Shown here: piece by piece, positions 1-42,417 of the stretch | How positions within the stretch are numbered: position 1 is the first letter of the stretch | Layout: the number at the start of each line of letters is the position of its first letter | Virus record (IMG/VR): IMGVR_UViG_3300042876_000925 | Span: 1 to 42,417 of that record | Reading direction: 5' to 3' (one strand) | Source: a virus | Length of the DNA: 42,417 nucleotides | Position numbers and translations under genes: made by a program | Notes under the pieces: model-generated | Told to the model about the DNA's origin: nothing | The model's input: only the letters and a program-made list of their open reading frames with translations | The model's database searches: none

Positions 1-251
1 GGTGCAACCGCCGAGTCGAACTCGATCACATGCCCGGCGAACTCGTTCTCGCCCCAAGCCTCAAAGAAGAACGCCCTTCCCGGCCTGGTCGCCTCGGCAT
101 CCTCAATCCACCGCCACCAACCAACCACGGCATCCACAGAACCAACGCCCGAAAGAAACACGGTCACAATTGAACCGTGGGAAGCAAGCGCATCACTCAA
201 CGCGCGCGGAGATCTAGCACCACCACGGAATGCGCAAACTAAACCCGACAC
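1..251 (-). CDS. Unrecognised protein, cut by the left edge
   Basis: An open frame of 83 codons runs off the left edge without a stop. I chose the GTG at 249-251 because a GGAGG ribosome-binding site lies about 7 bases upstream of it. That start overlaps the end of the methyltransferase gene by 13 bases, so the two are probably translated together. The visible part is rich in aromatic and acidic residues (Trp-Trp-Arg-Trp, Phe-Phe-Phe-Glu-Ala-Trp) and has no motif I know. If the sequence is circular, it could continue into the partial gene at the right edge, but the reading frames do not join directly. Confidence 0.55.
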   Translation of the reverse strand, partial: MSGLVCAFRGGARSPRALSDALASHGSIVTVFLSGVGSVDAVVGWWRWIEDAEATRPGRAFFFEAWGENEFAGHVIEFDSAVA

Positions 252-1111
252 TGAAGGGCCTCCAGAGCAGCCTCAGGAACAGCGAGACAATTTGGCCAGA
301 TCAAGACCTCTCCACCTTGCAGCGAACTTGCGTGGGCGGAATATCGAAGCGAGAAGGCACGAACGTTAGCCCACCGATACAACCGGCGAACTTCTTCCAC
401 GTCATCATAAGTCATGATCCATCGCGTAGTCTTCAATGCTTTCATCCGGGACGACAAAGCACGGTGCTCTTTGGCTTGGAAGTGATTAAGGTAAAGCTCC
501 CGGCCCTTCACAAAGTACGGAGGATCACCGTAGACAAACACTTCTTCTCCAAACTCGCCTTGCTCGATAGAATACACCAAGTCTACCCCGTTTGAGTTTG
601 TGACAATGACCCTATCTTCATAAGAGGCGATGACCTCGACTCGGCGCGCCAACTCTTGTCGGTTGAACCGAGCATCAATCTTCCACTCCCCGTCCTGCTC
701 GAGACCGCCAATTGGGCCTCCATTCATAATGATACCAGAGCGGTTGCACCGATTGAGGTAAAATGTTGCAAACCCAAGATTGAAGGCATTTTCTCGCCCG
801 CCGTTTCGGTATGTGTCCCGTTGGCGAGTCCACTCTGCAATATCCAGCGGCACCGAAAAAATCTTCTCTACGAACCGCTCAGTAGACGAAAGCATTGCAT
901 TCCACATCGAGTAGACGGCAACATCGATGTCGTTGATGACAATCCGGTCTACAACCCCATACTCAAGAAGCTTTAACCCGGCCCCTGCTCCGCCCGCGAA
1001 CGGCTCAACGTAGGTGCATCCCTCGAGGCCATTGGCACAGATAACTCGATCAAGCAAATCTGACAGAACGGCTTTTCCGCCGGGATATCTAAGAGGGCTA
1101 AGGCTTCGCAT
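239..1111 (-). CDS. D12-class N6-adenine DNA methyltransferase (Dam-like)
   Basis: This 290-residue protein has the layout of Dam/D12 methyltransferases. The opening Arg-Tyr-Pro-Gly-Gly-Lys motif is near residue 8, the SAM-binding segment EPFAGGAGAG near residue 36, an Asn-Asp-Ile-Asp motif follows, and the catalytic DPPY is at residues 196-199. Family members transfer a methyl group from SAM to adenine N6, often in GATC. Length and motif order are normal, so it should be active. Its start codon directly abuts the stop of the ParB/HEPN-like gene, so the two form one unit. Base composition is clearly more AT-rich than most of the window. It may protect phage DNA from restriction or be the modification arm of a cassette with its neighbour; the target site cannot be read from sequence. 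Confidence 0.9.
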   Translation of the reverse strand: MRSLSPLRYPGGKAVLSDLLDRVICANGLEGCTYVEPFAGGAGAGLKLLEYGVVDRIVINDIDVAVYSMWNAMLSSTERFVEKIFSVPLDIAEWTRQRDTYRNGGRENAFNLGFATFYLNRCNRSGIIMNGGPIGGLEQDGEWKIDARFNRQELARRVEVIASYEDRVIVTNSNGVDLVYSIEQGEFGEEVFVYGDPPYFVKGRELYLNHFQAKEHRALSSRMKALKTTRWIMTYDDVEEVRRLYRWANVRAFSLRYSAHASSLQGGEVLIWPNCLAVPEAALEALQCRV

Positions 1112-2557
1112 CTAGGTTCCCCTCGACATTGCTTTTTGAATAACCGGCAGCAACGGACCCCTGATCTCAGCAACCGACCTCGGAGATGCACTCCAATGCT
1201 TGTTGTGAAGGTACTGGTTTAACATGCACACGCTAAGCGGCCCGTCGCCAAGCAAATTAACAAGAGCTTTCTTTTCTTCTTGGCTTAAGCCAATATCAAA
1301 GATCACCGCCGACTTGACATCGCTTAAAAGCTTTTGAACCGGGATATCTAACAAGCCGCACTTGTGTTCTGCTTCCAACTTGCGAACACAACCCATTTCC
1401 TCGGCAGAGATCCGCAAAGCGGTTTCCAAAACAGCTCGCAAAAGTGCGGCTGAAGAATTCGGGAAATCTTCCAAGCATAGCCTCTTGCCCTCTTCGACTA
1501 GCTCATGAAGCTTAGCATTTTCAAGACCGCAAACAAGGGACTTCGGCAACAGGTATCGTAAATTGCTAGGAGACTTTTTGTTTTTGCGCGCAGTCGAACG
1601 CGCCCCGTTGGCTGATGGCAACGCAAGGAATTCCGAAGGTACAGCCTTCATTGAGACAACTTTCTTCACCTCAACTGAACCTGCATTGCTAGGCGTGTAG
1701 CCTAGCCTTCCTAAAAATACCTCTTGCCCATCGTCGTCATTAAGCTTCCTGGTGTCGATGCTCCCGCTCGCCGCTTCCTCAAGGATCTTAACAAGAACCG
1801 GAAGGAATTCACTGAGTGGTGGCACGAGAAGGTCACCGTTCTCAGAGATTACCAACCCAAGGCGCCGTCGCGTTTTAAGCGGGACAACCAACCGCTCAAC
1901 TACTGTTGAGTATGGAAACTGGTCAGGGTCTTCCAAGAGAATAGCAGCCTTCTCGCTCAACTGCGGCTTTACATGCGTGCACAAACTGAAGAATTGGCCA
2001 GCCGCGACGTGAATGAGCACCTGGTCCCGTTTGATTCCGAATTTATAAACTATTTCATCGACCGAATCACCCTGCTCAATCCGACCCGCAACAAAAGCCG
2101 CTTGCTGCAACGGCTTCCAATTGACGGTGTAGGAGTCAGAGGCATGCTTAGAGAACATGACAACTTCCGCGTGATAGCTAGAAGGAACAATATGAATCGG
2201 AACCTTCTTCGGCAGTTTCGCCTCTTTGGCTAAGCTCGCGAAGCGCTTTCTGTAATTCTCTGGCGCAAGGCTTGGGTTGTCCAAAACCTTTAGCGCGCAG
2301 AGGCGGCGATTGCCTTCGTACACGACTTTCCGAGAGCCCTCAACCACCACAAGAAGCGGCTCCCGGAAGAATCCTTTGTGGGCCATCGATTTGGCTAGGC
2401 GCTCTATTCCGGCGTTCCGGGTGCACAAAACCCTCACGAAATCACGGTCGCTTTTGCAGGTTCGGAAGTCAGGGTACCGAGGGTTCGCAGGCGAAAATCG
2501 CAACGCGCGCACGGTTGCGCTACCGGCTTTCCATTGCTCGGAATCGATAAGGGGCAT
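1112..2557 (-). CDS. ParB/Srx-fold protein with HEPN-like C-terminal region
   Basis: The start at 2557 is supported by a GGAGGAA ribosome-binding site 7 bases upstream; a longer frame to 2620 has no such site. Residues about 15-110 read as a ParB/sulfiredoxin-type domain: a predicted strand ending in PANPRYPDF, a helix, then a segment giving YEGNRRLCALKVL, which is the ParB GxxR box. The middle region (about 115-200) looks like a helical DNA-binding extension. Residues about 370-480 are helical and resemble DUF4145/HEPN-type domains (AALLRAVLETALR, then LNQYLHN). The usual RxxxxH active site is not obvious. The gene is followed immediately by an adenine methyltransferase. The pairing and low GC suggest an acquired defence or counter-defence module; that role is inference. 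Confidence 0.6.
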   Translation of the reverse strand: MPLIDSEQWKAGSATVRALRFSPANPRYPDFRTCKSDRDFVRVLCTRNAGIERLAKSMAHKGFFREPLLVVVEGSRKVVYEGNRRLCALKVLDNPSLAPENYRKRFASLAKEAKLPKKVPIHIVPSSYHAEVVMFSKHASDSYTVNWKPLQQAAFVAGRIEQGDSVDEIVYKFGIKRDQVLIHVAAGQFFSLCTHVKPQLSEKAAILLEDPDQFPYSTVVERLVVPLKTRRRLGLVISENGDLLVPPLSEFLPVLVKILEEAASGSIDTRKLNDDDGQEVFLGRLGYTPSNAGSVEVKKVVSMKAVPSEFLALPSANGARSTARKNKKSPSNLRYLLPKSLVCGLENAKLHELVEEGKRLCLEDFPNSSAALLRAVLETALRISAEEMGCVRKLEAEHKCGLLDIPVQKLLSDVKSAVIFDIGLSQEEKKALVNLLGDGPLSVCMLNQYLHNKHWSASPRSVAEIRGPLLPVIQKAMSRGT

Positions 2558-2752
2558 CGTGTGTTCCTCCGTAGGTGTCCGACGGGGTAACCTCCGGCAC
2601 TGCTCTTGTCGAGGGCGCACTGCTTTCCCTCGCCGCTCCGGTGCGGCGTCAGATTCCCGAACACGGCTCTCAAATCAGTTTGGTGTTGAGATTTCCGGAT
2701 CTCCAGGCCTTCATCAATTCGCCAAGGTTTCGTTGAGGTTTCCTCGGCACCC

Positions 2753-3035: not shown

Positions 3036-4508
3036 TCACTCCCCCTCCCCTTCGTCTCCGGACGTCTGGACGTCTCCGATCTCCGCGCCGAACCGGTCGC
3101 ACGCCGCGACGAATCCACGGTCCCACTTCCGGTTCGCGGCGAAATCGTACGGCTCCCACTTCGTCGCGATGAGCTGGACGATCAGGCCGCGGAGCTGCTT
3201 CGCGTTCAGGTCGGCCTCGCGCAGCGCGTCCGCCGCGCTCCCTTTTTTCGGGACCGCGATCTCGCGGGCCTCGGCCGCCGCCGCGAGCTTCTCGCGGTTG
3301 CAGCAACGGTCGAGGACGTAGTCCAGGACGAACCCGAGGAACTCCTTCCCCTCGCCCGCGCGTTCCACCGCCGCCACCAGCGCGCGGTTCGCCTCTTTCC
3401 ACGCCTCGCGCCGGCGCCGCGCGTGCTCGCGCTTCCGGGCCTGCGCCGCCTTGTCGTTGCCCGGCCGGTCCACCCGGAACTTTGCCCCGGCCGCCTTCGC
3501 CGCCTCGACCAGCTCGGCGCGGACGTAAACCTCGACCGGTGCCATCAGCGACGTGCGCCCCAGGACCGGGGCCGGAAGCTGCGATTTCTTGAGGAGCTTG
3601 GACCACGGCCGAACCGGCGAAACGTCGTAGCAGGTATCGGAAAGGCGCTCGTACTTCTGCCCTCCGGGATAGTCCGAATCGTACGGCCAGACCTTCGCGC
3701 ACTCCTCGTCCGTGAGAACGCGCCACCCGCTCGCCTCGAACTCCGCCCGCTTCGACGCGTACGCGATCGCGTTATGGGCTTTCCTCGCCTCGGTGCCGAC
3801 CAGCTCCTTCACCTCGCGGAACGGCAGGATTCCGGTTTCCTCGTCCCGATCCCAGTCCTCGGGGTCCATCACCGCCAACGCAACCCGCTCCTGGGCGTCG
3901 CGGTCGGGCAGGGCCGCGATCGCTTCCGCGTGGCTCGCCGGCATCTTGCCGGTCTCGACGTGCCGCTGCACCGACGGCGCCAGATCGAGCAGCTTCAGCC
4001 GCGCGTAAATCGCCGACCGGCTCCGGTTCAGTTTCTCCACGAGATCATCGACCGCCCACCCCATGTCCAGCAGCCGGCGGAACCCCCGCGCCTCGTCGAG
4101 CGGCCGCAGGTCCTCGCGCTGCAAGTTCTCCGTCAACCGGAGCTGCTCGGCCGCCCGGTCGTCCAGATCCCGCACCGTCGCGGGGATCTCGGCGAGGCCC
4201 ACTTCCCCGGCGGCGCGCCAGCGGCGCTCGCCCATCACGATCTCCCACGGCGGCAGCGCCTCCAGCCCGGGCCCGCGATGCAGCGGGCGGACCATGATCG
4301 GCTGCAACACCCCGAGCTGGCGGACGCTCGCCACCAGCTCGCGGAACTTCTCGTCGTCGAACGTGTCCCGGTTCAGCGGCGACCGCTGGATCCGGTCGAG
4401 CGGGATCATCTGGAAGATCGCCGGGCCGGAGGCCTCGGCGACGGGTGCTTCGTTCGGTTCCGGCGCGGCTTGAGCCGCGCCCCTCTTCGGTTGTCTGGCG
4501 TGTTTCAT
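3036..4508 (-). CDS. parB: ParB/Spo0J-type partition protein
   Basis: 490 residues. The ParB N-terminal domain spans about residues 34-130: IPLDRIQRSPLNR, then VRQLGVLQPIMVRP, the GERRWRAA box that binds nucleotide in ParB CTPases, and TENLQREDL. A helix-turn-helix follows (about 150-185; WAVDDLVEKLNRSRSAIYARLKLL). The rest is long, charged and unlike chromosomal ParB, ending in an acidic tail. Classical ParB proteins bind parS sites and work with ParA, but no ParA is visible here. It lies in an early operon just after the replication-initiator-like gene. It could act in partition of an episomal prophage, in replication control, or as a transcription regulator. Confidence 0.85.
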   Translation of the reverse strand: MKHARQPKRGAAQAAPEPNEAPVAEASGPAIFQMIPLDRIQRSPLNRDTFDDEKFRELVASVRQLGVLQPIMVRPLHRGPGLEALPPWEIVMGERRWRAAGEVGLAEIPATVRDLDDRAAEQLRLTENLQREDLRPLDEARGFRRLLDMGWAVDDLVEKLNRSRSAIYARLKLLDLAPSVQRHVETGKMPASHAEAIAALPDRDAQERVALAVMDPEDWDRDEETGILPFREVKELVGTEARKAHNAIAYASKRAEFEASGWRVLTDEECAKVWPYDSDYPGGQKYERLSDTCYDVSPVRPWSKLLKKSQLPAPVLGRTSLMAPVEVYVRAELVEAAKAAGAKFRVDRPGNDKAAQARKREHARRRREAWKEANRALVAAVERAGEGKEFLGFVLDYVLDRCCNREKLAAAAEAREIAVPKKGSAADALREADLNAKQLRGLIVQLIATKWEPYDFAANRKWDRGFVAACDRFGAEIGDVQTSGDEGEGE

Positions 4509-11177: not shown

Positions 11178-14000
11178 ATGCCTACCCTCCTGACTTGGAA
11201 CGAGGTCCGCAGTCGGGCGATCCGCTTCTCCAGAGATTGGGCGGAGGCCACGGACGAGGAACGGGATAAACAGTCGTTCTGGAACGATTTCTTCGATGTG
11301 TTCGGGGTGCCACGCCGAAGCGTGGCGGTTTTCGAGCACGCGGTCGCTACGGCGAAGGGGTCCTACGGGTTCCTCGACCTTTTCTGGCCCGGGGTGCTGC
11401 TCGTGGAACACAAGAGCGCGGGGGCGTCGCTGGCGAAGGCGGAGTCGCAGGCGTTCCGATACCTCGAGGATTTGGCTCGATCCGGGTCTCACGACCAGCT
11501 CCCAAGGTGGGTGATCGTTTGCGATTTCGCCCGGTTCGCGCTCTACGATCTGGAGCCGGACGATCAGCGCGATTTGCCGCTGTTCGATACGGGACGGCCG
11601 TACCGGTTGGTCGAGTTCGAGCTGCGGGAACTGCACCGCCACGCCCGCGAGTTCGCATTCATCAAGGGGGAGAAGCCGGTGCGGCTCGATCCGGAGGATC
11701 CGGCGAACCTGAAGGCGACGCAGCTCCTCGCGGATCTCCACGACGCGATTCAGACGACGGGGTACGACGGGCACGATCTCGAACGGTATCTGGTCCGCCT
11801 GCTGTTCTGCTTTTTCGCGGAGGACACGGGGATTTTCGAGCCGGGGTGTTTCACGAACCTGATCGCGCTGTCGCGGGCGGACGGGGCGGATACCGGGCTG
11901 CGACTGGCCCAGCTCTGGGACGTGCTGAACACGGACCCGGAACGACGGCAGCGGAATCTCGACGAGGATCTCGCGGCGTTCCCGTGGGTGAACGGGGGTC
12001 TTTTCGCAGAGAACCTGCGGGTGTGCCAGTTCGACAAGGGGCTGCGGAATGCTCTGGTCGCGTGCACTCAGTTCCACTGGGCGAAGATCAGCCCGGCGGT
12101 TTTCGGCAGCTTGTTCCAGGGGGTGATGGACGACCGGCAGCGGCGGCAGATCGGGGCGCACTACACGAGCGAGCGAGACATCATGAAGGTGCTGCGGTCG
12201 CTCTTTCTCGACGAGCTGCGCGCAGAGCTGGACGCCGCGCTCGCCGACCGCTCGACGAACCGGACCAAACGGCTGAGGGCGTTTCAGGCAAAACTCCGCT
12301 CGATGAAGTTCTTCGACCCCGCGTGCGGGTGCGGCAATTTCTTGATCCTCGCCTACCGGGAGCTGCGCCGCCTCGAAAACGAGGTGCTGGTCGCCATCCA
12401 CGGGACAGGAATCGCGGATATGTACGACGTCCGAAACATGGCGCTCGTGGACGTGGACCAATTCTACGGGATCGAGATCGGGGAATGGCCGGCGCGCATC
12501 GCGGAGGTGGGGCTTTGGCTAACGGACCACCAGTGCAACGTGGAGCTCGCGGAGGCGCTCGGAACGACTTGCCGCCGCCTACCGCTCAAGGCCGCGCCGA
12601 CGATCCGGATCGGGAACGCGCTGAGGGTCGATTGGCAGGAGTTTTTGCGGCCGACGGATGACGTGCTGGTTTTCGGAAACCCGCCGTTCGTGGGGGGGAA
12701 GTACCAAACGCAACCTCAACGGGATGATATGGCGGCGGTGGCCGCAGGCGTCGAGAACGCGGGCCTGCTCGATTACGTCTGCGGGTGGTACCTCAAAGCG
12801 GCCGAGTACACCCGGGGAACGCGCATCCGGTGCGCCTTCGTCTCGACCAACAGCATCACCCAGGGCGAGCAGGCGGGGGTGATTTGGAATTACCTTTTCC
12901 AGAGACACGGGATCAAAATTCACTTCGGGCACCGGACCTTCCCGTGGATGAGCGAAGCGCGTGGGCGAGCGCACGTCCACGTCGTAATCATCGGGTTCGC
13001 GGCGTTCGATCACCCCGGAAAGGTCATCTACGACTACGCCGCTGCGGGCTCCGAACCGACGGTGGTGGAGGTCTCCAACATCTCGCCTTACCTGAGCGAA
13101 GGCCCCGACAAAGCCATCACCAACCGATCGACGCCGATCTGTAGTGTGCCCGAGTTGGCGATGGGCAACCAACCCATCGACGGCGGCCACTACCTTTTCA
13201 CGCCAGATGAGAAAATGGCATTTCTGGCATCGGAACCAGCAGCCAAACCCTTTTTCATGCTTTGGCTCGGTGCAGACGAGTTCATCAACGGCATCGAACG
13301 CTGGTATCTGTGGCTCGGTTTGACTCGCCCGGAACAACTCCGGCGACTCCCACAATGCCTCAAGCGGGTCGAAGCTGTCCGTGCTTACAGGCTTGCCAGC
13401 AAACGCAAGCAGACGATCAAGCTCGCCGAGACACCGACGCGATTCCAGACTGAAAACATCCCGAGCGGCCAATACTTAGTGATCCCAGAAGTCAGTTCAG
13501 AACGCCGCCGATACATTCCGTTGGGCTTTCTCGGTCCTGAGGTGCTGTGCAGCAACAAACTGCGGATCATGAGGGACGCCACGATATTCCACTTTGGCGT
13601 TCTCACTTCCGCGATGCACATGGCATGGACCAACGCCGTAACGGGCCGCCTCAAGAGCGACTACCAATACTCTGTGAAGCTCGTTTACAACAACTTCCCT
13701 TGGCCCGCAGAAGTTTCCGAGAAAGATCGCGCCTCCGTCGAGGCATGCGCTCAGGCGGTGCTTGATGCCCGGGCTCAATTTCCCGCTTCAACCCTCGCGG
13801 ACCTGTACGACCCGCTGACCATGCCCGCCCCGCTAGTAAAGGCGCACGCTGCGCTCGATCGCGCGGTGGACCGCTGCTACCGGCCGAAGGCGTTCAACTC
13901 TGACCGAGAGCGGGTGGAGCACCTTTTTGCGATGTACGAGAAGCTGGCCGCCCCGCTGCTGCCGACGAACAAGGCGCGGCGGCAACGGCAACGGACTTGA
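11178..14000 (+). CDS. MmeI-like type IIL/IIG restriction-modification enzyme
   Basis: 940 residues, close to MmeI in length. The nuclease motif Asp67-x9-Glu77-x-Lys79 matches the MmeI D-x9-ExK active site. A helical spacer (about 170-340) follows. The methyltransferase part has motif I DPACGCGNF at 380-388 and NPPF at 501-504. The target-recognition region (about 640-860) and a C-terminal helical part complete the family order. One chain cuts DNA at a distance from its site and methylates one strand at adenine. DNA coding for the target-recognition part appears less GC-rich than the rest, as in exchanged modules. It lies just beyond attP, likely a defence cargo gene. Confidence 0.88.
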   Translation: MPTLLTWNEVRSRAIRFSRDWAEATDEERDKQSFWNDFFDVFGVPRRSVAVFEHAVATAKGSYGFLDLFWPGVLLVEHKSAGASLAKAESQAFRYLEDLARSGSHDQLPRWVIVCDFARFALYDLEPDDQRDLPLFDTGRPYRLVEFELRELHRHAREFAFIKGEKPVRLDPEDPANLKATQLLADLHDAIQTTGYDGHDLERYLVRLLFCFFAEDTGIFEPGCFTNLIALSRADGADTGLRLAQLWDVLNTDPERRQRNLDEDLAAFPWVNGGLFAENLRVCQFDKGLRNALVACTQFHWAKISPAVFGSLFQGVMDDRQRRQIGAHYTSERDIMKVLRSLFLDELRAELDAALADRSTNRTKRLRAFQAKLRSMKFFDPACGCGNFLILAYRELRRLENEVLVAIHGTGIADMYDVRNMALVDVDQFYGIEIGEWPARIAEVGLWLTDHQCNVELAEALGTTCRRLPLKAAPTIRIGNALRVDWQEFLRPTDDVLVFGNPPFVGGKYQTQPQRDDMAAVAAGVENAGLLDYVCGWYLKAAEYTRGTRIRCAFVSTNSITQGEQAGVIWNYLFQRHGIKIHFGHRTFPWMSEARGRAHVHVVIIGFAAFDHPGKVIYDYAAAGSEPTVVEVSNISPYLSEGPDKAITNRSTPICSVPELAMGNQPIDGGHYLFTPDEKMAFLASEPAAKPFFMLWLGADEFINGIERWYLWLGLTRPEQLRRLPQCLKRVEAVRAYRLASKRKQTIKLAETPTRFQTENIPSGQYLVIPEVSSERRRYIPLGFLGPEVLCSNKLRIMRDATIFHFGVLTSAMHMAWTNAVTGRLKSDYQYSVKLVYNNFPWPAEVSEKDRASVEACAQAVLDARAQFPASTLADLYDPLTMPAPLVKAHAALDRAVDRCYRPKAFNSDRERVEHLFAMYEKLAAPLLPTNKARRQRQRT

Positions 14001-36010: not shown

Positions 36011-36646
36011 TCAAGTCTCGCGCTGATCGTTTAGAAGTTCGTCGAAAAGACCCGGCTGGAAGGGCTGTAACGCCCGCTGTTCCGCACGGAAGAACTCGGC
36101 CTTGGTCCTCCCTTCCCCCTTCCCTCGGGCCGTGTGGCAGTCGTAGGCGTAATCGGGGATCGGGACGTATTCCGGCGCTGCTCGGAGGTCGTCGGCCAGA
36201 CCTTCGGGGTCGAGGCCGGCCATCTGGTCGTAGACGAAGTTTTGAAGGTGGTCGGGATCGCGGCTCTTTTTCGCGAGCGACAGCAGGATCACGGCCTTCG
36301 AGATGAAGATGCGCCCCCTCGCCTTCCGGTTGGGGACGTTGGCGTTGACGATCCCGTAGCCGTCGCACAGCGCCTTGATCTCGGCGGTGATGATCCCCCA
36401 ACAGTCCTCGGCCGAGATCGTGAGCAGCCTCCGCCAGACGTACTGGCCGAAGCCCGACGCCCACAGCTCGAGCGCCCAATAGCCCCCGAGCTGGGCGTCG
36501 CCCCTCCGGATCGCCTTCTGCATGGCGCTCGAAACCTCCCCGAAGTCGTAGCCTCTGATCGTCCGCAGTCTCATGCCCGGTGAGTCTAGCGGTCCGGACC
36601 CGGACCCCGGAGCGTTCCCGGTGGTGCAATGGGGGTGCGCCTTCAT
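36011..36646 (-). CDS. Stand-alone RarA/MgsA C-terminal-like protein
   Basis: 211 residues from the ATG at 36646, which overlaps the stop of the AAA+ gene as ATGA; an ATG at 36574 is the other option and would remove 24 residues unlike the family. The core (YDFGEVSSAMQKAIRRGDAQ, then GGYWALEL, YVWRRLLTISAEDC) resembles the C-terminal domain of RarA/MgsA recombination-associated ATPases, which forms tetramers and binds DNA. The AAA+ part is absent here but may be supplied by the next gene. It may act in replication-fork or clamp-loader work. Confidence 0.65.
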   Translation of the reverse strand: MKAHPHCTTGNAPGSGSGPLDSPGMRLRTIRGYDFGEVSSAMQKAIRRGDAQLGGYWALELWASGFGQYVWRRLLTISAEDCWGIITAEIKALCDGYGIVNANVPNRKARGRIFISKAVILLSLAKKSRDPDHLQNFVYDQMAGLDPEGLADDLRAAPEYVPIPDYAYDCHTARGKGEGRTKAEFFRAEQRALQPFQPGLFDELLNDQRET

Positions 36647-37278
36647 CGCACCGCCTCAATGTCCATGGCGCTTTCCAGATCGGCGAGCGCGGCCCGGACG
36701 CACCCCCCGCACCCGACGGCGATCTGCCGCGCGAGCGCCTTCGGTGCCTTCCAGCGGCGGACCAGCCATGCGGCGATCTCGTCCGACTCAGGCCCCGCGA
36801 TCTTCCACGCCTGAAAGCGCGTCTGAAACCGCTCCGAGAGAAGGTCGAGCTTGAGGTTGCTCGTGCCGATCAACGCCTTCCCCTCTCCCATCCGGTCGAG
36901 GTAGGTCAGCATCAGGTCTTGCGCGTCGCGCGAACACCGGTCGAGTTCGTTGACGATCCGGACCTGCCACCCTCCGCCGAACAGGCTCCCGTAGCTTAGG
37001 CGGTCGAGCCACCCGCGCACCGTGTCGACCGTGATCTCCTTCCCGTTCGCGTCATCGACAGCGAGCCGCTCGCCCGCGGTCAGCTCGGCCGCGACCATCT
37101 CCGCGATCGTTGTCTTCCCCGTGCCCGGAGGCCCGTAGAGCAACACCTTGAGCGGGCCGCTGCCGTCCCGCCTGTACCGGATCGCCTTCGCCACCAGCGC
37201 CGTGGCGGCTGCCCGCGCGTGCCCGATCAGATCGTCGGGCACGCGGGGTTTGAAAGCCGAGGGGTCAACGCGCTTCAT
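36643..37278 (-). CDS. AAA+ clamp-loader/RarA-like ATPase
   Basis: 211 residues. Walker A GPPGTGKT is at 49-56. The Walker B region reads Arg-Ile-Val-Asn-Glu-Leu-Asp-Arg-Cys, so the usual first Asp is Asn. Sensor 1 (TSN) and the arginine finger (SERFQTRF) are present. This looks like the AAA+ module of clamp loaders or of RarA, without the C-terminal domain. ATGA coupling to the RarA-C-like gene suggests a two-subunit complex. The altered Walker B may slow ATP hydrolysis. Overlap with the second AAA gene is 14 bases. Confidence 0.75.
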   Translation of the reverse strand: MKRVDPSAFKPRVPDDLIGHARAAATALVAKAIRYRRDGSGPLKVLLYGPPGTGKTTIAEMVAAELTAGERLAVDDANGKEITVDTVRGWLDRLSYGSLFGGGWQVRIVNELDRCSRDAQDLMLTYLDRMGEGKALIGTSNLKLDLLSERFQTRFQAWKIAGPESDEIAAWLVRRWKAPKALARQIAVGCGGCVRAALADLESAMDIEAVR

Positions 37279-38164
37279 CGTCGCTCCCTCCCTCGTGGGT
37301 CGCCTTCGCGACTTTGATCTTCGAGATCTCGGCGAGGAGCATCGCCTCCGTCACCCGCCAGCGGTCCGGATTCGGGTCGGCCGATGCAGCGTGCATCGCG
37401 TTGACGCAAGCGTTGAGGATGTCTCCCCCCGACAACCCGCGCGACTCGACCGAAGCCCGCCGCAGGTCGGCGGGAGTTCGATCCGCGTTCGGCAGGTGGC
37501 CGCGCAACAGCCGCTCCCGCATCGCCCGGTCGGGCAAGGCGAACCGCACATGCCGCGCGATCCGGCGGAGCATCGCCTCGTCGTAATTCCCGAAGAGGTT
37601 TGTCGTCATCACCACGACCCCGTCGAACCGGTCCAGCTCCTGCATCAGCGTGTTGCGGTTCTGGTTGATCGACGTCGAGCAGCTCTCCCCCGCCGGGACG
37701 CGGCGGGAGAGGAGGCTGTCCGCCTCGTCGAAAAACAGCACCGCGCCCGCCTCCCGCGCCTGCCTGAACGCGAGCGCGATATGCTTCGCCGTGTCGCCGA
37801 GGTACTTGCTCACGATCTGGCTGTAATCGACTTGGTAGAGCAACCGGCCCACCCGCCGAGCGATCCCGAGCGCCGCGCGCGTCTTCCCGGTGCCAGGCGG
37901 CCCGTAGAAGTTGATCACGCAGCGGTTCGCGAGCGGCTGGATCTCGCTCAGGCGCCACACCGACTCCATACGGTCCCGCATTTCGACGGAGCGGAGCGCC
38001 GCCTCGATGTCGGCCTTGGCGTCAGCGTGAAGCACGAGGTTGCGCAGGTCGTGGCGCGGCTCCGGCTCCACGATGGTCCCGACCTCCGGCGGCTCCTCCG
38101 GCCGCCGGCGGCGGCGCGGGTTCGCGTGGTCCTCGATCGGGTTCAGTTCGTCATTGTCTGGCAT
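37265..38164 (-). CDS. Cdc48/spastin/FtsH-like AAA ATPase
   Basis: 299 residues. After a Pro/Arg-rich N-terminus come Walker A GPPGTGKT at 88-95, the pore-loop-like SKYLGDTAKHI at 119-129, Walker B VLFFDEAD at 142-149, and RRIARHVRFALP as the arginine-finger region. This is the classical unfoldase/disaggregase AAA pattern. A hexameric phage remodeller of protein or DNA complexes is likely. AAAGGA precedes the start. It is clustered with another AAA+ gene and HTH-bearing proteins. Confidence 0.85.
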   Translation of the reverse strand: MPDNDELNPIEDHANPRRRRRPEEPPEVGTIVEPEPRHDLRNLVLHADAKADIEAALRSVEMRDRMESVWRLSEIQPLANRCVINFYGPPGTGKTRAALGIARRVGRLLYQVDYSQIVSKYLGDTAKHIALAFRQAREAGAVLFFDEADSLLSRRVPAGESCSTSINQNRNTLMQELDRFDGVVVMTTNLFGNYDEAMLRRIARHVRFALPDRAMRERLLRGHLPNADRTPADLRRASVESRGLSGGDILNACVNAMHAASADPNPDRWRVTEAMLLAEISKIKVAKATHEGGSDDEAR

Positions 38165-38336
38165 GTTCGGTCCTTTCTTCGGTTTGGTTGGTTTGCTGGC
38201 ACTGAAAACTCTCGATCAGATCGGCCACCGCCCGCGCCCCCTTGCGGTACACGGTCACGGCGACCAGATTTCCCTCGCGCCACACGGCCCAGAACCGGCC
38301 GCCGTAGCGCGTCACCTCCACGCGGGGCAGGCTCAT
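38151..38336 (-). CDS. Small beta-rich protein before the AAA gene
   Basis: 61 residues from the ATG at 38334-38336, overlapping the upstream stop as ATGA and the AAA gene by 14 bases. It has three short strands (RVEVTRYGGRFWAVWREGN, then LVAVTVYRKG) and a helix, then a Gln/Glu-rich tail. A small adaptor for the AAA ATPase is possible. Unknown family. Confidence 0.55.
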   Translation of the reverse strand: MSLPRVEVTRYGGRFWAVWREGNLVAVTVYRKGARAVADLIESFQCQQTNQTEERTEHARQ

Positions 38337-38902
38337 CGCCCCCACCCCCCGCGCCGGATCCGCGCCTTCAGCGTGTTGGGCGACACGTCGAACTCCGCCG
38401 CCGTCCGCTTCACGCTGCGGGTTTGCTGGTAGCGCCGGCGGATCGCCCGCCAGTCCGGGCCCGCGATCGCACGCCTTTGCGCGGGAATGGCCCGCGTGGG
38501 GCCGTCCTCGCTCGCGGCCCCTGTCCCGATATCCCCGAGAGGATCCCGCCGCGTTTGCGGCCGGTTTCCCTCGCGGGACACCCGCTCGACCTGAGCGAGC
38601 CTCCGCTCGACCTCCGCCAGAGCCGAGGCCGTCGCCCCCTGCACCGCCGAAGCCACGAGCGCGCGGAGATTCACCCGGTTTCCCCGGGGCATCACCACGC
38701 CCGCCATCTGCGTCGACACGATCTCGCGGATCACCTCCACGGGAATCTCCGTGATCGCGTAGACCACCCCCGCGAGCTTCTCCAGCCCGAGCGCCTGCTT
38801 CATCCGCTCGCGGGCCTCGCGCGGCGTCGCCGCCACGACCCGCTGGTCGAACACGATCCGCCCGCCCTTGCTGGCAAGCATCTTGAACACCCGCTCGCTC
38901 AT
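38333..38902 (-). CDS. Protein with C-terminal HTH
   Basis: 189 residues from the ATG at 38900-38902, overlapping the upstream stop as ATGA. The N-terminal half is mixed (FKMLASKGGRIVFDQRVVAA), the middle helical (SAVQGATASALAEVERRL), and the C-terminus carries a helix-turn-helix (RRYQQTRSVKRTAAEFDVSP, then NTLKARIRR). It could recruit or regulate the neighbouring ATPase or amidotransferase operon on DNA. Confidence 0.55.
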   Translation of the reverse strand: MSERVFKMLASKGGRIVFDQRVVAATPREARERMKQALGLEKLAGVVYAITEIPVEVIREIVSTQMAGVVMPRGNRVNLRALVASAVQGATASALAEVERRLAQVERVSREGNRPQTRRDPLGDIGTGAASEDGPTRAIPAQRRAIAGPDWRAIRRRYQQTRSVKRTAAEFDVSPNTLKARIRRGGWGR

Positions 38903-39537
38903 CGCGCACCCCCTTCCTCCCACAGCGCCATCTGCGGCTCCGCTCCCGCCCGCGCCGCCTTGCGGCACGGCCGCTTCGCGCGGTCCATCTCGTACAGGAA
39001 CCCGAGGTTCGAGCACCGCATCCCGCGCCACTCGCGCCAGTCGCCGAACACCCGCGTCTCGCGCGAGGAGAACAGCACCCACCGCCCCTCCACATCGCCG
39101 AGCACCTCCGGCTTCCGCAGGTGATCCACCAGCAGCGCCATCACCCGGCTGTCGGAGATCGCGCCCGCGATCGTCCGCTTCTGCTTCTGCTCGATGTGCG
39201 CGAGCGCATCGCGGTAGCCCGCCCACGTCCCGTTGTGGAAGAGCACGCGGCGCGCAGCCCCCTCCAGCTTCGTCGCGGCCGCCCGGTCCACCGGGAACGG
39301 GTGGCAGAGCCGCGGGTTCACCCCGCCGACGCTCGCCCACCGGAAGTGGACCACCGCCTCGCCCTTGGCCGTCCGGAGCGCATCCATCACACCCGCCGGA
39401 TCGAGGTTCTTCGACCAGCGGACTTCCTTCCCCTCGCGCCACGCCACACCCGCCCCGTGGGGGTTTGCGGCGTGGCAGGCCTCCACCACATCGCCGTCCG
39501 GGCGGACGCCCGGCGGACAAATCAGAATCACACACAT
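38899..39537 (-). CDS. Class II glutamine amidotransferase-like protein
   Basis: 212 residues from the ATG at 39537 with an AAAGGAAA ribosome-binding site. The residue after Met is Cys2, the nucleophile of N-terminal-nucleophile amidotransferases. The expected His-Phe-Arg-Trp-Ala-Ser near 64-69, Cys-His-Pro-Phe at 78-81 and Phe-His-Asn-Gly-Thr near 100-104 follow. Such proteins release ammonia from glutamine for a partner enzyme. An amidoligase gene lies just upstream, matching known gene pairs. Confidence 0.8.
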   Translation of the reverse strand: MCVILICPPGVRPDGDVVEACHAANPHGAGVAWREGKEVRWSKNLDPAGVMDALRTAKGEAVVHFRWASVGGVNPRLCHPFPVDRAAATKLEGAARRVLFHNGTWAGYRDALAHIEQKQKRTIAGAISDSRVMALLVDHLRKPEVLGDVEGRWVLFSSRETRVFGDWREWRGMRCSNLGFLYEMDRAKRPCRKAARAGAEPQMALWEEGGAR

Positions 39538-39620
39538 ACTCGGTTTCCTTTCGTTGGTTCGTTGGTTTGGAATCCGCCCCGCTCCCCCCGCACCCGCGGA
39601 GCTCGCGGAGCGGAAAGGGT

Positions 39621-40577
39621 TCACAGCGGCGCGTCGGGGAACCGCTCGTCGAATTGCTCGCAGAGGCGCAGCGCCTCGCGGCTGTAAGTCGGAAAGTCGG
39701 AGTGCAGCCGGCCGAACTGGCCGAGGGCGGCGGGGCGCTTGCTCCCGGTCCACCCGAGGTAATCCCAGAGGAACCGCACCGCGTCGGCGGCCGTGCGCGT
39801 CCGCGCCTGCTGCGCCTTGTTCTTGTCGAACGCCCCGAGGCACTGGACCTCGTGCGCTCGGCGGCAGAGCCCGAGCGCCGTGGCGACGTGGTGCTGCACC
39901 TTCAGCAAGTTCAGCGTCCCGGCGAACGCGCGGAACTCGACCAGCCCGGCGGAGAAGAGCTTGCGGAAGTTGATCATCCCGCGCCCGCACAGCGTCGCCG
40001 CCGTCACCTTGTGCTGCGGCTCCCGCGCCTCCGCCATCTGGCGGGCCAGCGTCGCCACCTGCGGCGCGAGCGGCGCGGCGTAGAGGTTCAGGTGCCGGCC
40101 CGTTCCCGTTTGGCCGTAGATCGCTCTCGCGTGCCAGCGGGCGATGTGCGCCAGCTTCCGCGCGAACTCCCCGCGCGCGTCCGGGTCGCTCGTGCCGATC
40201 ACGCTGTCCGCGCTCACGGTCACATGGCAGCCGCAACTGGCGTTCACGCGGGCGCCGATCGCGTTGGCCCACCCCACGAACCCGCACAGCGTCTCCACCC
40301 CCGCCTCCCCCTTGAGGATGGGCGAGACAAACTCGCAGGCGGCGTGCCCGCGCTCCGGCTGGATCGAGCTGTCGCGTTCGGCCCGCCACCACTTGCCGTT
40401 GAAGGTCGGGGCGGCGATCACGGCCCGGTTCGGGTCGAGCGCGCTCGTCACCGGGCGTCCTCCGTGGTAGCTGCCCACCGACAGGTCGGCGGCGGTTGGA
40501 ACGGTCGTTTCCAGCTCGACGCCGAAGGTGATCTCGCTGGCTTTGAGGTCGGGAATGGTCTGGCGTTTCATCCCCAT
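39621..40577 (-). CDS. Amidoligase (COOH-NH2 ligase family)
   Basis: 318 residues. The start of the domain, EITFGVELETTVP, and later EFVSPILKGEAG, ASCGCHVTVSAD, GRGMINFRKL and VEFRAFAGTLN are the family signatures of amidoligases related to glutamine synthetase and glutamate-cysteine ligase. They join an amino group to a carboxylate using ATP. Known phage versions often have an amidotransferase neighbour, as here. The substrate cannot be read from sequence: a modified base, a peptide or a protein are all possible. Confidence 0.85.
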   Translation of the reverse strand: MGMKRQTIPDLKASEITFGVELETTVPTAADLSVGSYHGGRPVTSALDPNRAVIAAPTFNGKWWRAERDSSIQPERGHAACEFVSPILKGEAGVETLCGFVGWANAIGARVNASCGCHVTVSADSVIGTSDPDARGEFARKLAHIARWHARAIYGQTGTGRHLNLYAAPLAPQVATLARQMAEAREPQHKVTAATLCGRGMINFRKLFSAGLVEFRAFAGTLNLLKVQHHVATALGLCRRAHEVQCLGAFDKNKAQQARTRTAADAVRFLWDYLGWTGSKRPAALGQFGRLHSDFPTYSREALRLCEQFDERFPDAPL

Positions 40578-40693
40578 TGTGTTGCCAGCCGCCCCCGCGT
40601 GGGGTCCATCGGTTTAGAACACCATTTTAACGGCGGTTTAACTCACCGTTGCCGCGCTTGGCGCGCGGGCTGCTCCGCGCGCGGCGGCCGCCC

Positions 40694-40718
40694 GCCTGTA
40701 ACATTTCGCGTTACAGGC
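40694..40718. repeat. Hairpin in the gap before the amidoligase
   Basis: GCCTGTAAC (40694-40702) pairs with GTTACAGGC (40710-40718) around a 7-base loop. It is followed by a 16-base palindrome and a terminator. Between it and the amidoligase start lies an A/T-rich patch (about 40610-40642) with two GTTAAA motifs, where a minus-strand promoter could lie. Confidence 0.5.
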
Positions 40719-40725
40719 CGGGCCC

Positions 40726-40741
40726 GTCCGGACGTCCGGAC
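40726..40741. repeat. 16-base palindrome, second perfect copy
   Basis: GTCCGGACGTCCGGAC, identical to 7871-7886, directly next to the terminator. In this copy the site is intergenic, so coding constraint does not explain it. Confidence 0.7.
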
Positions 40742-40742
40742 G

Positions 40743-40770
40743 CAAAAAAGGGCGGCCCGCAGGCCGCCCT
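40743..40770 (-). terminator. Rho-independent terminator after the glycosyltransferase
   Basis: AGGGCGGCC (40749-40757) and GGCCGCCCT (40762-40770) form a 9-base-pair stem with a 4-base loop. On the minus strand six T residues follow. It ends the operon of the glycosyltransferase and ParB-like genes. Confidence 0.85.
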
Positions 40771-40791
40771 CGCTTTACCTCCTTCCCCCTC

Positions 40792-41556
40792 TTACGGCGC
40801 GAGCCGCAAGCTCTGGCGGCGCTGCACGTCCACCACCACCCTGTCTTGGCTCTTGTATTGCTCGAAGCGCATGTGCGCCTTCCACTTCCCTTGTAGATAG
40901 CGTTTCTCCGCCTCGATCCGCTCCGCCGAGCGGAACAGCGAGTTCCCCCCGAGGTTCTTGTCCCGCTCCTGGGCGAAGCAGAACCGCGACTCGTGCCACA
41001 CGATCCGGTTGAGCATCAGCTCCGTCAGCGTCGCGTCGATGTCGCACTTGCACTTCAGCAGCTCGTCCCACCGCACCGCCTTCCCGATCACCCCGAGCGC
41101 CCCGCCCATCCAGTTGTGGACGCCGAACGGATCGTTTCGCTGCAAAAGCCGCGGGTCGCTCCGCTGGTGCCAGCCGAACAGCCGCGCCCCCGCCCCCATC
41201 GCGCAGCGCGCCGTGTTCTCCACCATCGCCGCCGTCTCCTCGATCGAGAGCCGGCGCACCTTCAGGCTCACCATGCACATGCAGGCCCCGAGGTCGTCGT
41301 CCAGCATCACCACGCACTCCTCGTCGAACCGGCGCACGATCCAGTTTCGCACCGCGCTGATCCCGTGGATCGCGTCCGGGATCGCCACCGTCTCAAGCCC
41401 GAACGCGGCGTAATCCCCCACCTCCGTCTCCGGCACCACCAGCGTCGCCCCCGGGAAAAGCCGGTGCGTCGTCATCTGGCGGGCCCGGCTCCGGCTCATG
41501 ATCACAGTCCGGATCGCCAGCGGCCGCAGCTCCGGCCACTCGTCAGGACGCTCCAC
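40792..41556 (-). CDS. TET-associated-type glycosyltransferase (TAGT-like)
   Basis: 254 residues. It shows VIMSRSRARQMTTHRLFPGA, a central RNWIVRRFDEECVVMLDDDL with the acidic DDD motif of GT-A-like enzymes, then GVHNWMGGALGVIG and a helical C-terminus. This layout matches the TAGT family, first described next to TET/JBP dioxygenases in phages and proposed to glycosylate 5-hydroxymethylpyrimidines. The start at 41556 overlaps the ParB gene by 14 bases; an ATG at 41499 is the alternative. No TET/JBP gene is seen in this window. Confidence 0.75.
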   Translation of the reverse strand: MERPDEWPELRPLAIRTVIMSRSRARQMTTHRLFPGATLVVPETEVGDYAAFGLETVAIPDAIHGISAVRNWIVRRFDEECVVMLDDDLGACMCMVSLKVRRLSIEETAAMVENTARCAMGAGARLFGWHQRSDPRLLQRNDPFGVHNWMGGALGVIGKAVRWDELLKCKCDIDATLTELMLNRIVWHESRFCFAQERDKNLGGNSLFRSAERIEAEKRYLQGKWKAHMRFEQYKSQDRVVVDVQRRQSLRLAP

Positions 41557-42223
41557 CGTTCCCCTCCCCGGCCGATTTCGCCTTCTGCGCCAGCTCGATC
41601 AGGCGGCGGCCGTGGAGCACCCGCCCCACGCCGAGCTTCCGCGTCTTGCGCGTGATCGAATAGTCCACCTCCCGCACCCCCATGAGCTGCAACGCCAACA
41701 TCCAGTCGCGCAGATCGTGGAACATGAACACCAGATAATCGTGGTGCTCGAACGCCTGGCACTCCATTCGCGGGATCGTCTCCAGCTCGTCGGCCGGATC
41801 CGGCTCGGCGAACAGCCGCGCGATCTCGTCCTCGGTGAACCCCGTCAGCTCCACGTCGAAATCCGGCTGGGTCTCCCGCAAGCGCGACACCAGCTTTTTG
41901 AGGTCGCCCTCGTCCAGATCGGCCAGCTCCGCCAGCCGGTTATCGGCCAGCAGATCCGCCAACTCCTCCGCCTCCGACCCGTAATCCTGCTCGTCCACCG
42001 GAACGCGCTCGCACCCCATCAGGAGCGCGGCTTCGAGCCGCCCGTGGCCGCGGACGACCAGCCCGCTCCGCTTGCTCACGGTGATCGGCGCCCGCCATCC
42101 CTGCTGCTCGATGATCGCGGCGAGAAGCTGGATTTGGTGGGCGCTGTGTCGGTTCGGGTTCGCCGGGTTCGGCTTCAGCTCCGCCGGCGGGATCAGCCGG
42201 GTGTGGGCGCAGTGAACTTCCAT
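41543..42223 (-). CDS. ParB-fold protein with extra C-terminal region
   Basis: 226 residues. The N-terminal ParB domain reads PPAELKPNPANPNRHSAHQI, ITVSKRSGLVVRGHGRLEAA, then ERVPVDEQDYGSEAEE. The C-terminal 70 residues contain HHDYLVFMFHDLRDWMLALQ and VDYSITRKTRKLG, not a standard HTH. ParB proteins with such tails occur next to modification enzymes in phages. TTGACA, 13 bases upstream, overlaps the stop of the partial gene. The protein may select sites or bind nucleotide for the glycosyltransferase. Confidence 0.8.
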   Translation of the reverse strand: MEVHCAHTRLIPPAELKPNPANPNRHSAHQIQLLAAIIEQQGWRAPITVSKRSGLVVRGHGRLEAALLMGCERVPVDEQDYGSEAEELADLLADNRLAELADLDEGDLKKLVSRLRETQPDFDVELTGFTEDEIARLFAEPDPADELETIPRMECQAFEHHDYLVFMFHDLRDWMLALQLMGVREVDYSITRKTRKLGVGRVLHGRRLIELAQKAKSAGEGNGGAS

Positions 42224-42238
42224 TCCAGCCGGGACGTG

Positions 42239-42417
42239 TCAACACCCGCGCCGGCCGGTCACATCCTCAAACACCTTCTCGACGAACGGGGTCACCCGCT
42301 CGATCTGCTCCATCCATGCCCGCCACCTTGGCTCCGCGTCCTCACGGCCCGCCTCCGCGAACGTTGTCAGGTACGCCGAGAGCGCCCCCGCACTTCGAAA
42401 CTCCACCCCCAAGTCGT
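42239..42417 (-). CDS. Unrecognised protein, C-terminus only, cut by the right edge
   Basis: 58 residues followed by TGA at 42239-42241; the N-terminus lies beyond the right edge. It is helical with Trp-rich turns (ALSAYLTTFAEAG, WRAWMEQIERVTPFVEKVF). It is immediately upstream of the ParB-like gene and likely part of that operon. If the sequence is circular it could be the end of the gene starting at 251, but two bases would be missing at the join. Confidence 0.5.
   Translation of the reverse strand, partial: DLGVEFRSAGALSAYLTTFAEAGREDAEPRWRAWMEQIERVTPFVEKVFEDVTGRRGC

Follow-up and report, generated by a model that had tools for sequence, protein, structure and literature searches.

A tailed ParB-fold protein and a TAGT-family glycosyltransferase form a widespread phage gene pair that probably modifies viral DNA

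Results

The window analysed in this study is the whole of the IMG/VR virus contig IMGVR_UViG_3300042876_000925, which comprises 42,417 bases with a G+C content of approximately 0.68 across most of its length and includes terminase (GpA) and portal genes. Four minus-strand genes near its right-hand end encode a ParB-fold protein, a TAGT-family glycosyltransferase, an amidoligase and a class II glutamine amidotransferase, much as and about where an earlier sequence-only reading of this DNA had placed them (Table 1). That reading had treated the four genes as a possible base-hypermodification locus. DNA modification is indeed well supported for the ParB-fold protein and TAGT, because the N-terminal domain (N-domain) of the former is common to DNA methyltransferases, such a ParB also lies beside the DNA-modifying enzyme Mom, and TAGT belongs to the family of the T-even DNA sugar enzymes. 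The four genes together, however, do not make up one fixed pathway.

Table 1. Features of the ParB-TAGT locus and adjoining genes (positions in the window)
Feature	Position	Strand	Basis
ParB-fold partner protein, 226 residues	41543..42223	-	phrog_498 E 5.8e-38, phrog_620 E 5e-33; directly upstream of TAGT in relatives
ParB N-domain, residues 1-140, exchangeable	41804..42223	-	54% identity to nd4 fusion N-domain; distances do not track TAGT
TAGT-coupled C-terminal tail, residues 148-213 (~66 residues)	41585..41782	-	TAIL profile 99 bits
TAGT-family GT-A glycosyltransferase, 254 residues	40792..41556	-	PF20691 29.2 bits, above cut-off of 27.5
DDD motif, residues 86-88, metal/nucleotide-sugar site	41293..41301	-	invariant in 21 relatives
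Intrinsic terminator between the two gene pairs, after TAGT	40748..40771	-	10-bp stem, then T run
Amidoligase (Amidoligase_2), 318 residues	39621..40577	-	PF12224 39.2 bits, above cut-off of 22
Class II (N-terminal nucleophile, Ntn) glutamine amidotransferase, 212 residues	38899..39537	-	conserved motifs; Pfam GATase_4 15.1 bits, below cut-off of 23
Conserved gene after amidotransferase, function unassigned	38333..38902	-	hyp196 profile matches: L009, L011, L012, L015, L024
RarA/MgsA C-terminal-like protein (phrog_16866)	36011..36646	-	frequent companion of ParB-TAGT pair

The assignment of the glycosyltransferase to the TAGT family, with its LDDD motif, was borne out both by the Pfam match and by an AlphaFold model with a GT-A fold (predicted local distance difference test, pLDDT, 84.8; predicted template modelling score, pTM, 0.84). 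PF20691 scores are 34-63 bits in the relatives L001, L002 and Streptococcus phage Javan291, while the Microbacterium member falls below the cut-off. The closest viral structure models are TAGT proteins and the T-even-type beta-glucosyl-hydroxymethylcytosine (HMC)-alpha-glucosyltransferase, and the nearest solved structures in the PDB are the GT-A sugar transferases MpgS/GpgS, WrtF and TarP; comparison of the TAGT sequence with solved structures gave no match.

The ParB identity of the partner protein rests on its PHROG families and its fold, the AlphaFold model matching Noc/ParB structures; the Pfam ParB_N score of 16.4 bits is below the cut-off of 26.3. There is no HTH_ParB match and no methyltransferase domain in the chain, and GHGR replaces GERR and ADNR replaces ENxQR, which sets the protein apart from the partition ParBs with their CTPase clamp. 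Over 137 residues, its N-domain shows 54% identity with the one in the ParB-N6/N4-methyltransferase fusion of phage nd4; identity with that of Roseburia phage Shimadzu is 50%. In Psychrobacter phage vB_PmaS_Y8A, a ParB of the same N-domain type is found directly upstream of Mom (PF25680, 188 bits; locus L008, 5962-7219), a phage Mu-type DNA adenine modifier. The sequence-only reading had also pointed to a novel tail; the tail is real, and it turned out to be the most informative feature of the locus. With the tail profile, ParB-methyltransferase, ParB-Mom and partition ParB controls all scored at background.

A TAGT-based scan of viral contigs found a ParB-fold gene beside TAGT in 26 of 26 loci; it lies immediately upstream in 24 of them, and a single inverted MgsAC-like gene intervenes in the other two. 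To escape the circularity of a TAGT query, we also searched with the tail alone. This yielded 75 new viral loci, with TAGT just downstream in all 73 that have room for it and two ending at the contig edge, and 31 loci in GTDB genomes, with TAGT in 29 of 29 and two cut off; an alignment of diverged tails added 78 tail-bearing loci, where TAGT is adjacent in 76, 790 bp away in one and cut off in one (77/77 with room), but all of these tail queries derive from TAGT-linked proteins, so that diverged tails without the partner would be missed. Altogether, 208 ParB-TAGT pairs fall into 100, 53, 25 and 14 clusters at 90, 70, 50 and 40% TAGT identity, respectively. Loci found in genomes belong to Verrucomicrobia, Planctomycetes, Lentisphaerae, Bacillota, Acholeplasmataceae, Chloroflexi, Hydrogenedentes and Bradyrhizobium, and isolates that carry the pair are Javan291, a prophage, and Microbacterium phages (e.g., Quhwah and Smarties), the latter supplying 56 of the 58 TAGT matches in the phage collection. 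The genes often adjoin terminase genes. In summary, the ParB-fold gene and TAGT are an obligate pair, a real and widespread two-gene phage module.

The two parts of the ParB-fold protein relate very differently to the enzyme. Across pairwise distances over 52 cluster representatives, tail distances correlate with TAGT distances (ρ = 0.75), in contrast to N-domain distances (0.14); the corresponding partial correlations are 0.745 and -0.11, and none of 1000 label permutations reached the value for the tail. The low N-domain correlation is not noise, because an odd/even split of the N-domain gives a split-half correlation of 0.78 and length-matched N-domain samples still correlate with TAGT at only 0.13. 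Indeed, 91 pairs of loci combine TAGTs that are at least 38% identical with N-domains that are at most 22% identical. From these comparisons we infer that the N-domain is a targeting module for DNA modification and that the tail is a docking module for TAGT.

As the sequence-only reading had noted, a Tet_JBP dioxygenase was not found in the 42 kb window record, which may be a fragment; the reading allowed either that a TET/JBP or pyrimidine hydroxymethylase partner lies outside the window or that the chemistry differs. Profiles for Tet_JBP, C5-methyltransferases (PF00145) and thymidylate synthase/hydroxymethylase (PF00303) gave no match in 43 pair-carrying records, which include isolate phages and many fragments, and no recurrent oxidase-like neighbour was seen among 53 representative ParB-TAGT loci. 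As a positive control, the TET-like gene of Rhodococcus phage Tonitrus was detected by the Tet_JBP profile (E 7.7e-10), albeit with a score below the family cut-off. We therefore set aside a partner of these three types; given that no known acceptor maker appears in the 43 records, different chemistry is the better of the two options. Judged from these profile searches, the acceptor would not be made by TET/JBP, a C5-methyltransferase or a thymidylate-synthase-type hydroxymethylase, and it is possibly an unmodified base.

A UDP-glucose/GDP-mannose dehydrogenase-like gene lies within 100 bases downstream of TAGT in L121, L129, L132, L137 and Microbacterium phages, which suggests that the sugar either has a supply route of its own or is oxidised at a later stage. 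The enzyme is a short sugar-nucleotide dehydrogenase with no match to the UDP-binding C-domain in L121 (10898-11656), L129 (1744-2493) and L137 (11046-11819), and short, judged by length, in Smarties; L132 has the full-length form. We considered whether the amidoligase might amidate a sugar acid made by this dehydrogenase and dropped the idea, as the two genes, where seen, are in different loci.

The second gene pair was also correctly identified by the sequence-only reading. The amidoligase is above its Pfam cut-off and the amidotransferase, which is below, keeps its motifs in six aligned relatives (Cys2, NPHG(A/G)G, HFRxA, (H/Q)NGTW and SD). A terminator near position 40743 had been taken as a sign of two units; the hairpin is there and the suspicion of two units holds, although terminator-like sites in general are close to chance expectation (three found, 2.2 expected), and only the quality of this hairpin is notable. 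Among close relatives retrieved with the amidoligase and with the amidotransferase as queries, a redundant set of loci, the amidotransferase follows the amidoligase in 104 of the 106 with room, and the ParB tail or TAGT is present in 107 of the 109 with upstream room. The possibility that the four genes are never neighbours elsewhere does not hold: all four occur together in at least seven divergent lineages (the window, L002, L024, L275, L276, L279/L282 and L281), with a TAGT that can be as little as 26% identical to that of the window and, in L276, L279, L281 and L282, a gap of approximately 0.3-1.5 kb between TAGT and amidoligase. For this reason, we did not keep as our default the view that the amidoligase is wholly independent of ParB-TAGT and simply carried along. 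In L340, a TAGT-like enzyme precedes the amidoligase with no recognised ParB, and in L337 and L343-L346 a P-loop nucleotide-kinase-like gene fills the glycosyltransferase slot before the amidoligase and amidotransferase (the P-loop nucleotide kinase 3-like arrangement spans 8279-10855 in L337 and 8265-10789 in L344). Yet of the 44 TAGT clusters for which 4 kb or more of downstream sequence is available, only 4 have an amidoligase. Since it recurs in divergent lineages but is absent from most clusters, the amidoligase-amidotransferase pair is a recurrent but optional companion of ParB-TAGT. In gut Heliusvirales phages (L005, L006, L007), no more than a few genes separate a ParB-methyltransferase fusion from an amidoligase, and two of these phages have a gamma-glutamyl cyclotransferase there as well.

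A RarA/MgsA C-terminal-like gene also accompanies the pair, in 16 of the 44 clusters, and Microbacterium phages account for 56 of its 62 matches in phage records. We rejected it as a core third subunit on account of this limited occurrence and keep it as a companion; it is also found in Kitkat phage beside a different, longer glycosyltransferase and a ParB without the TAGT-type tail, which further counts against a core role. In the window, the RarA/MgsA-like protein is apparently split into two overlapping genes (36011-37278, minus strand), an AAA clamp-loader part and an MgsA_C-like part.

Lastly, the nearest relatives of the window in the ParB-tail search of the genome collection are Verrucomicrobia assemblies (Chthoniobacterales, Akkermansiaceae, Prosthecobacter), and we regard it as a virus of Verrucomicrobia-type bacteria. 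Several further genes of the window were recognised. A complete-looking PD-Lambda-5 defence system (239-2620, minus strand; D12 methyltransferase PD-Lambda-5_B, E 1.2e-100; ParB-like PD-Lambda-5_A, E 1e-37) has a G+C content of 0.52, as opposed to the value of most of the remaining window, and is thus probably recent cargo. A second, canonical ParB (3036-4508, minus strand; ParB_N 84.8 bits, HTH_ParB 53.9 bits, GERR and ENLQR motifs) is present as in a plasmid-like prophage. A full-length MmeI-like type IIL/IIG restriction-modification enzyme with five of five MmeI domains is encoded at 11178-14000 on the plus strand, opposite to the late genes, and an AAA ATPase related to phrog_3757 at 37265-38164 on the minus strand, its match to the anti-phage ATPase IteA being below the cut-off.

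Discussion

What we observed directly is which families the proteins belong to, that the ParB-fold gene and TAGT are obligately paired, that the tail and TAGT diverge jointly, and that no known acceptor maker could be detected. We interpret the pair, with a probability of about 0.68, as a two-subunit phage DNA-modification enzyme that carries out ParB-guided glycosylation of viral DNA. TAGT would be the catalytic subunit, a GT-A glycosyltransferase, and the ParB-fold protein the DNA-targeting subunit, whose tail of about 66 residues may dock TAGT while the exchangeable N-domain, of a kind otherwise fused to DNA methyltransferases, would bring the complex to viral DNA. The sugar would then be placed on phage DNA, probably shortly before packaging, given that the genes often adjoin terminase genes, and the glycosylated DNA would be shielded from host nucleases. 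As acceptor we envisage a base that carries no modification or one produced by an enzyme not recognised here. The amidoligase and class II amidotransferase, the optional second pair, may convert a carboxylate to an amide, with glutamine as the source of ammonia.

Several points weigh against this interpretation. TAGT is similar to GT-A enzymes of a general kind, whose substrates are polysaccharide, teichoic acid or small molecules, and the altered CTPase box of the ParB-fold protein (GHGR for GERR) leaves clamp-like loading unsupported. The tail has no sequence match among solved structures and is modelled by AlphaFold with mixed confidence; that the two genes lie side by side and diverge jointly is no proof that their products touch. 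Finally, many of the 43 records searched for an acceptor maker are fragments.

The alternative that survives best concerns the optional pair only. Close to even odds, we estimate, is that the products of the amidoligase and amidotransferase are peptide, cell-wall or nitrogen metabolites that have nothing to do with DNA, the two genes simply sharing their viruses with ParB-TAGT. Similar cassettes in ZRK32 and LUZ24-like phages have been read in this way, and the gamma-glutamyl cyclotransferase near the amidoligase of gut phages would fit; against it speaks how tightly the two genes are associated, across divergent viruses, with ParB-TAGT or with a nucleotide-kinase-like gene. Somewhat behind, but still a serious contender, is the possibility that ParB-TAGT glycosylates a pre-modified (hydroxylated or hydroxymethylated) base supplied by an enzyme, of phage or host, that has diverged beyond the reach of our profiles. 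The characterised T-even TAGTs act on bases derived from hydroxymethylcytosine, and the sub-threshold score of the Tonitrus control implies that divergent dioxygenases could escape detection, whereas neither the 43 records, isolate phages among them, nor the neighbours in the 53 representative loci offered such an enzyme. The bolder form of our own interpretation, in which ParB-tailed TAGTs glycosylate canonical bases directly, with no hydroxylation beforehand, and an interchangeable ParB-fold recognition domain common to methyltransferases guides them, is tentative and, we think, rather doubtful; it would describe a modular system of targeting subunit and modifying enzyme where recognition and chemistry are swapped independently.

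It is unlikely that all four genes form one hypermodification pathway, in which TAGT adds a sugar or handle that the amidoligase amidates with ammonia supplied by the amidotransferase. The seven or more lineages with all four genes, the short TAGT-amidoligase gaps in four loci, the ParB tail or TAGT in nearly all loci of close amidoligase relatives and the slot before the amidoligase pair that a P-loop kinase or TAGT-like enzyme can fill are all consistent with such a pathway, and CmoX/CmoY provide a precedent for amide ligation on DNA (PMC12783734). On the other hand, the amidoligase is missing from 40 of the 44 clusters, the terminator or other genes part the two pairs in the window and its close relatives, and amidoligase-amidotransferase cassettes exist in phages with no reported TAGT (LUZ24-like, ZRK32). 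That the target of TAGT is a protein, a cell-wall polymer or a small molecule, with ParB as regulator of the enzyme, would suit the fold neighbours MpgS/GpgS, WrtF and TarP, but is improbable for an enzyme whose closest viral structures are TAGTs and DNA-type phage enzymes and whose partner has an N-domain common to DNA methyltransferases.

Most likely, then, ParB-TAGT is a targeted DNA glycosyltransferase, with DNA as its presumed substrate. A recent survey found that 288 of 753 phage genomes carry a 'solitary' TAGT with no other DNA glucosyltransferase and called these potential novel transferases (PMC13216743, 2026); we found no description of the tailed ParB-TAGT pair in the literature searched, which did not cover Iyer et al. 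2013 (Nucleic Acids Research). Our results assign to many TAGTs beyond the T-even setting a partner gene of their own and a specific architecture that can be put to the test, and the pair has culturable carriers in Microbacterium phages such as Quhwah and Smarties and in the Streptococcus prophage Javan291. They also suggest why phage DNA-modification loci contain a ParB domain: it would be a module that can be exchanged, while the part specific to the enzyme resides in the tail. Glycosylation of bases that lack a hydroxyl handle would, if it takes place, be new DNA chemistry.

Comparison with known systems places the module among several partial counterparts. Like the amidoligase / class II amidotransferase / ATP-grasp cassette of LUZ24-like phages, the window has an Amidoligase_2 and Gn_AT_II pair, but ParB-TAGT is not reported there and no ATP-grasp enzyme was recognised in the window; a similar amidoligase cassette in planctomycete phage ZRK32 has been proposed to serve nitrogen metabolism. 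The CmoA/CmoX/CmoY system for carboxymethylcytosine amide likewise combines ParB-domain genes, whose function was called unknown, with amide ligases, some of which have a glutamine-hydrolysing domain (PMC12783734, 2025). In contrast to CmoX, a PF00145 C5-methyltransferase homologue was not found in our records, and Amidoligase_2 takes the place of the asparagine-synthetase-like ligase. In Tonitrus, a ParB-like gene is reported with a TET-like gene, within a base-modification locus that comprises TET/JBP, aGPT-PPlase and kinase (PMC11955845); no TET/JBP or aGPT-PPlase gene was found in our case, and the Tonitrus ParB is without the TAGT-type tail. T-even TAGTs add the second sugar to glucosylated hydroxymethylcytosine (PMC13216743), and the window TAGT shares the Pfam (PF20691) and PHROG family, the GT-A fold and the DDD motif with the T6/T2 beta-glucosyl-HMC-alpha-glucosyltransferase. 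Unlike the T6/T2 pathway, neither hydroxymethyl-dC synthesis nor a known acceptor maker was detected in the records searched, and the tailed ParB-fold protein is always paired with the enzyme. The arrangement of vB_PmaS_Y8A is similar in that a small ParB-fold gene lies directly upstream of a DNA-modifying enzyme and of terminase; the tail of its ParB differs from the TAGT type, and the enzyme is Mom rather than a glycosyltransferase. Closest in the targeting part are the phage ParB-DNA methyltransferase fusions (phrog_498), which have much the same N-domain, whereas in ParB-TAGT a short TAGT-coupled tail replaces the methyltransferase domain and catalysis resides in a separate gene.

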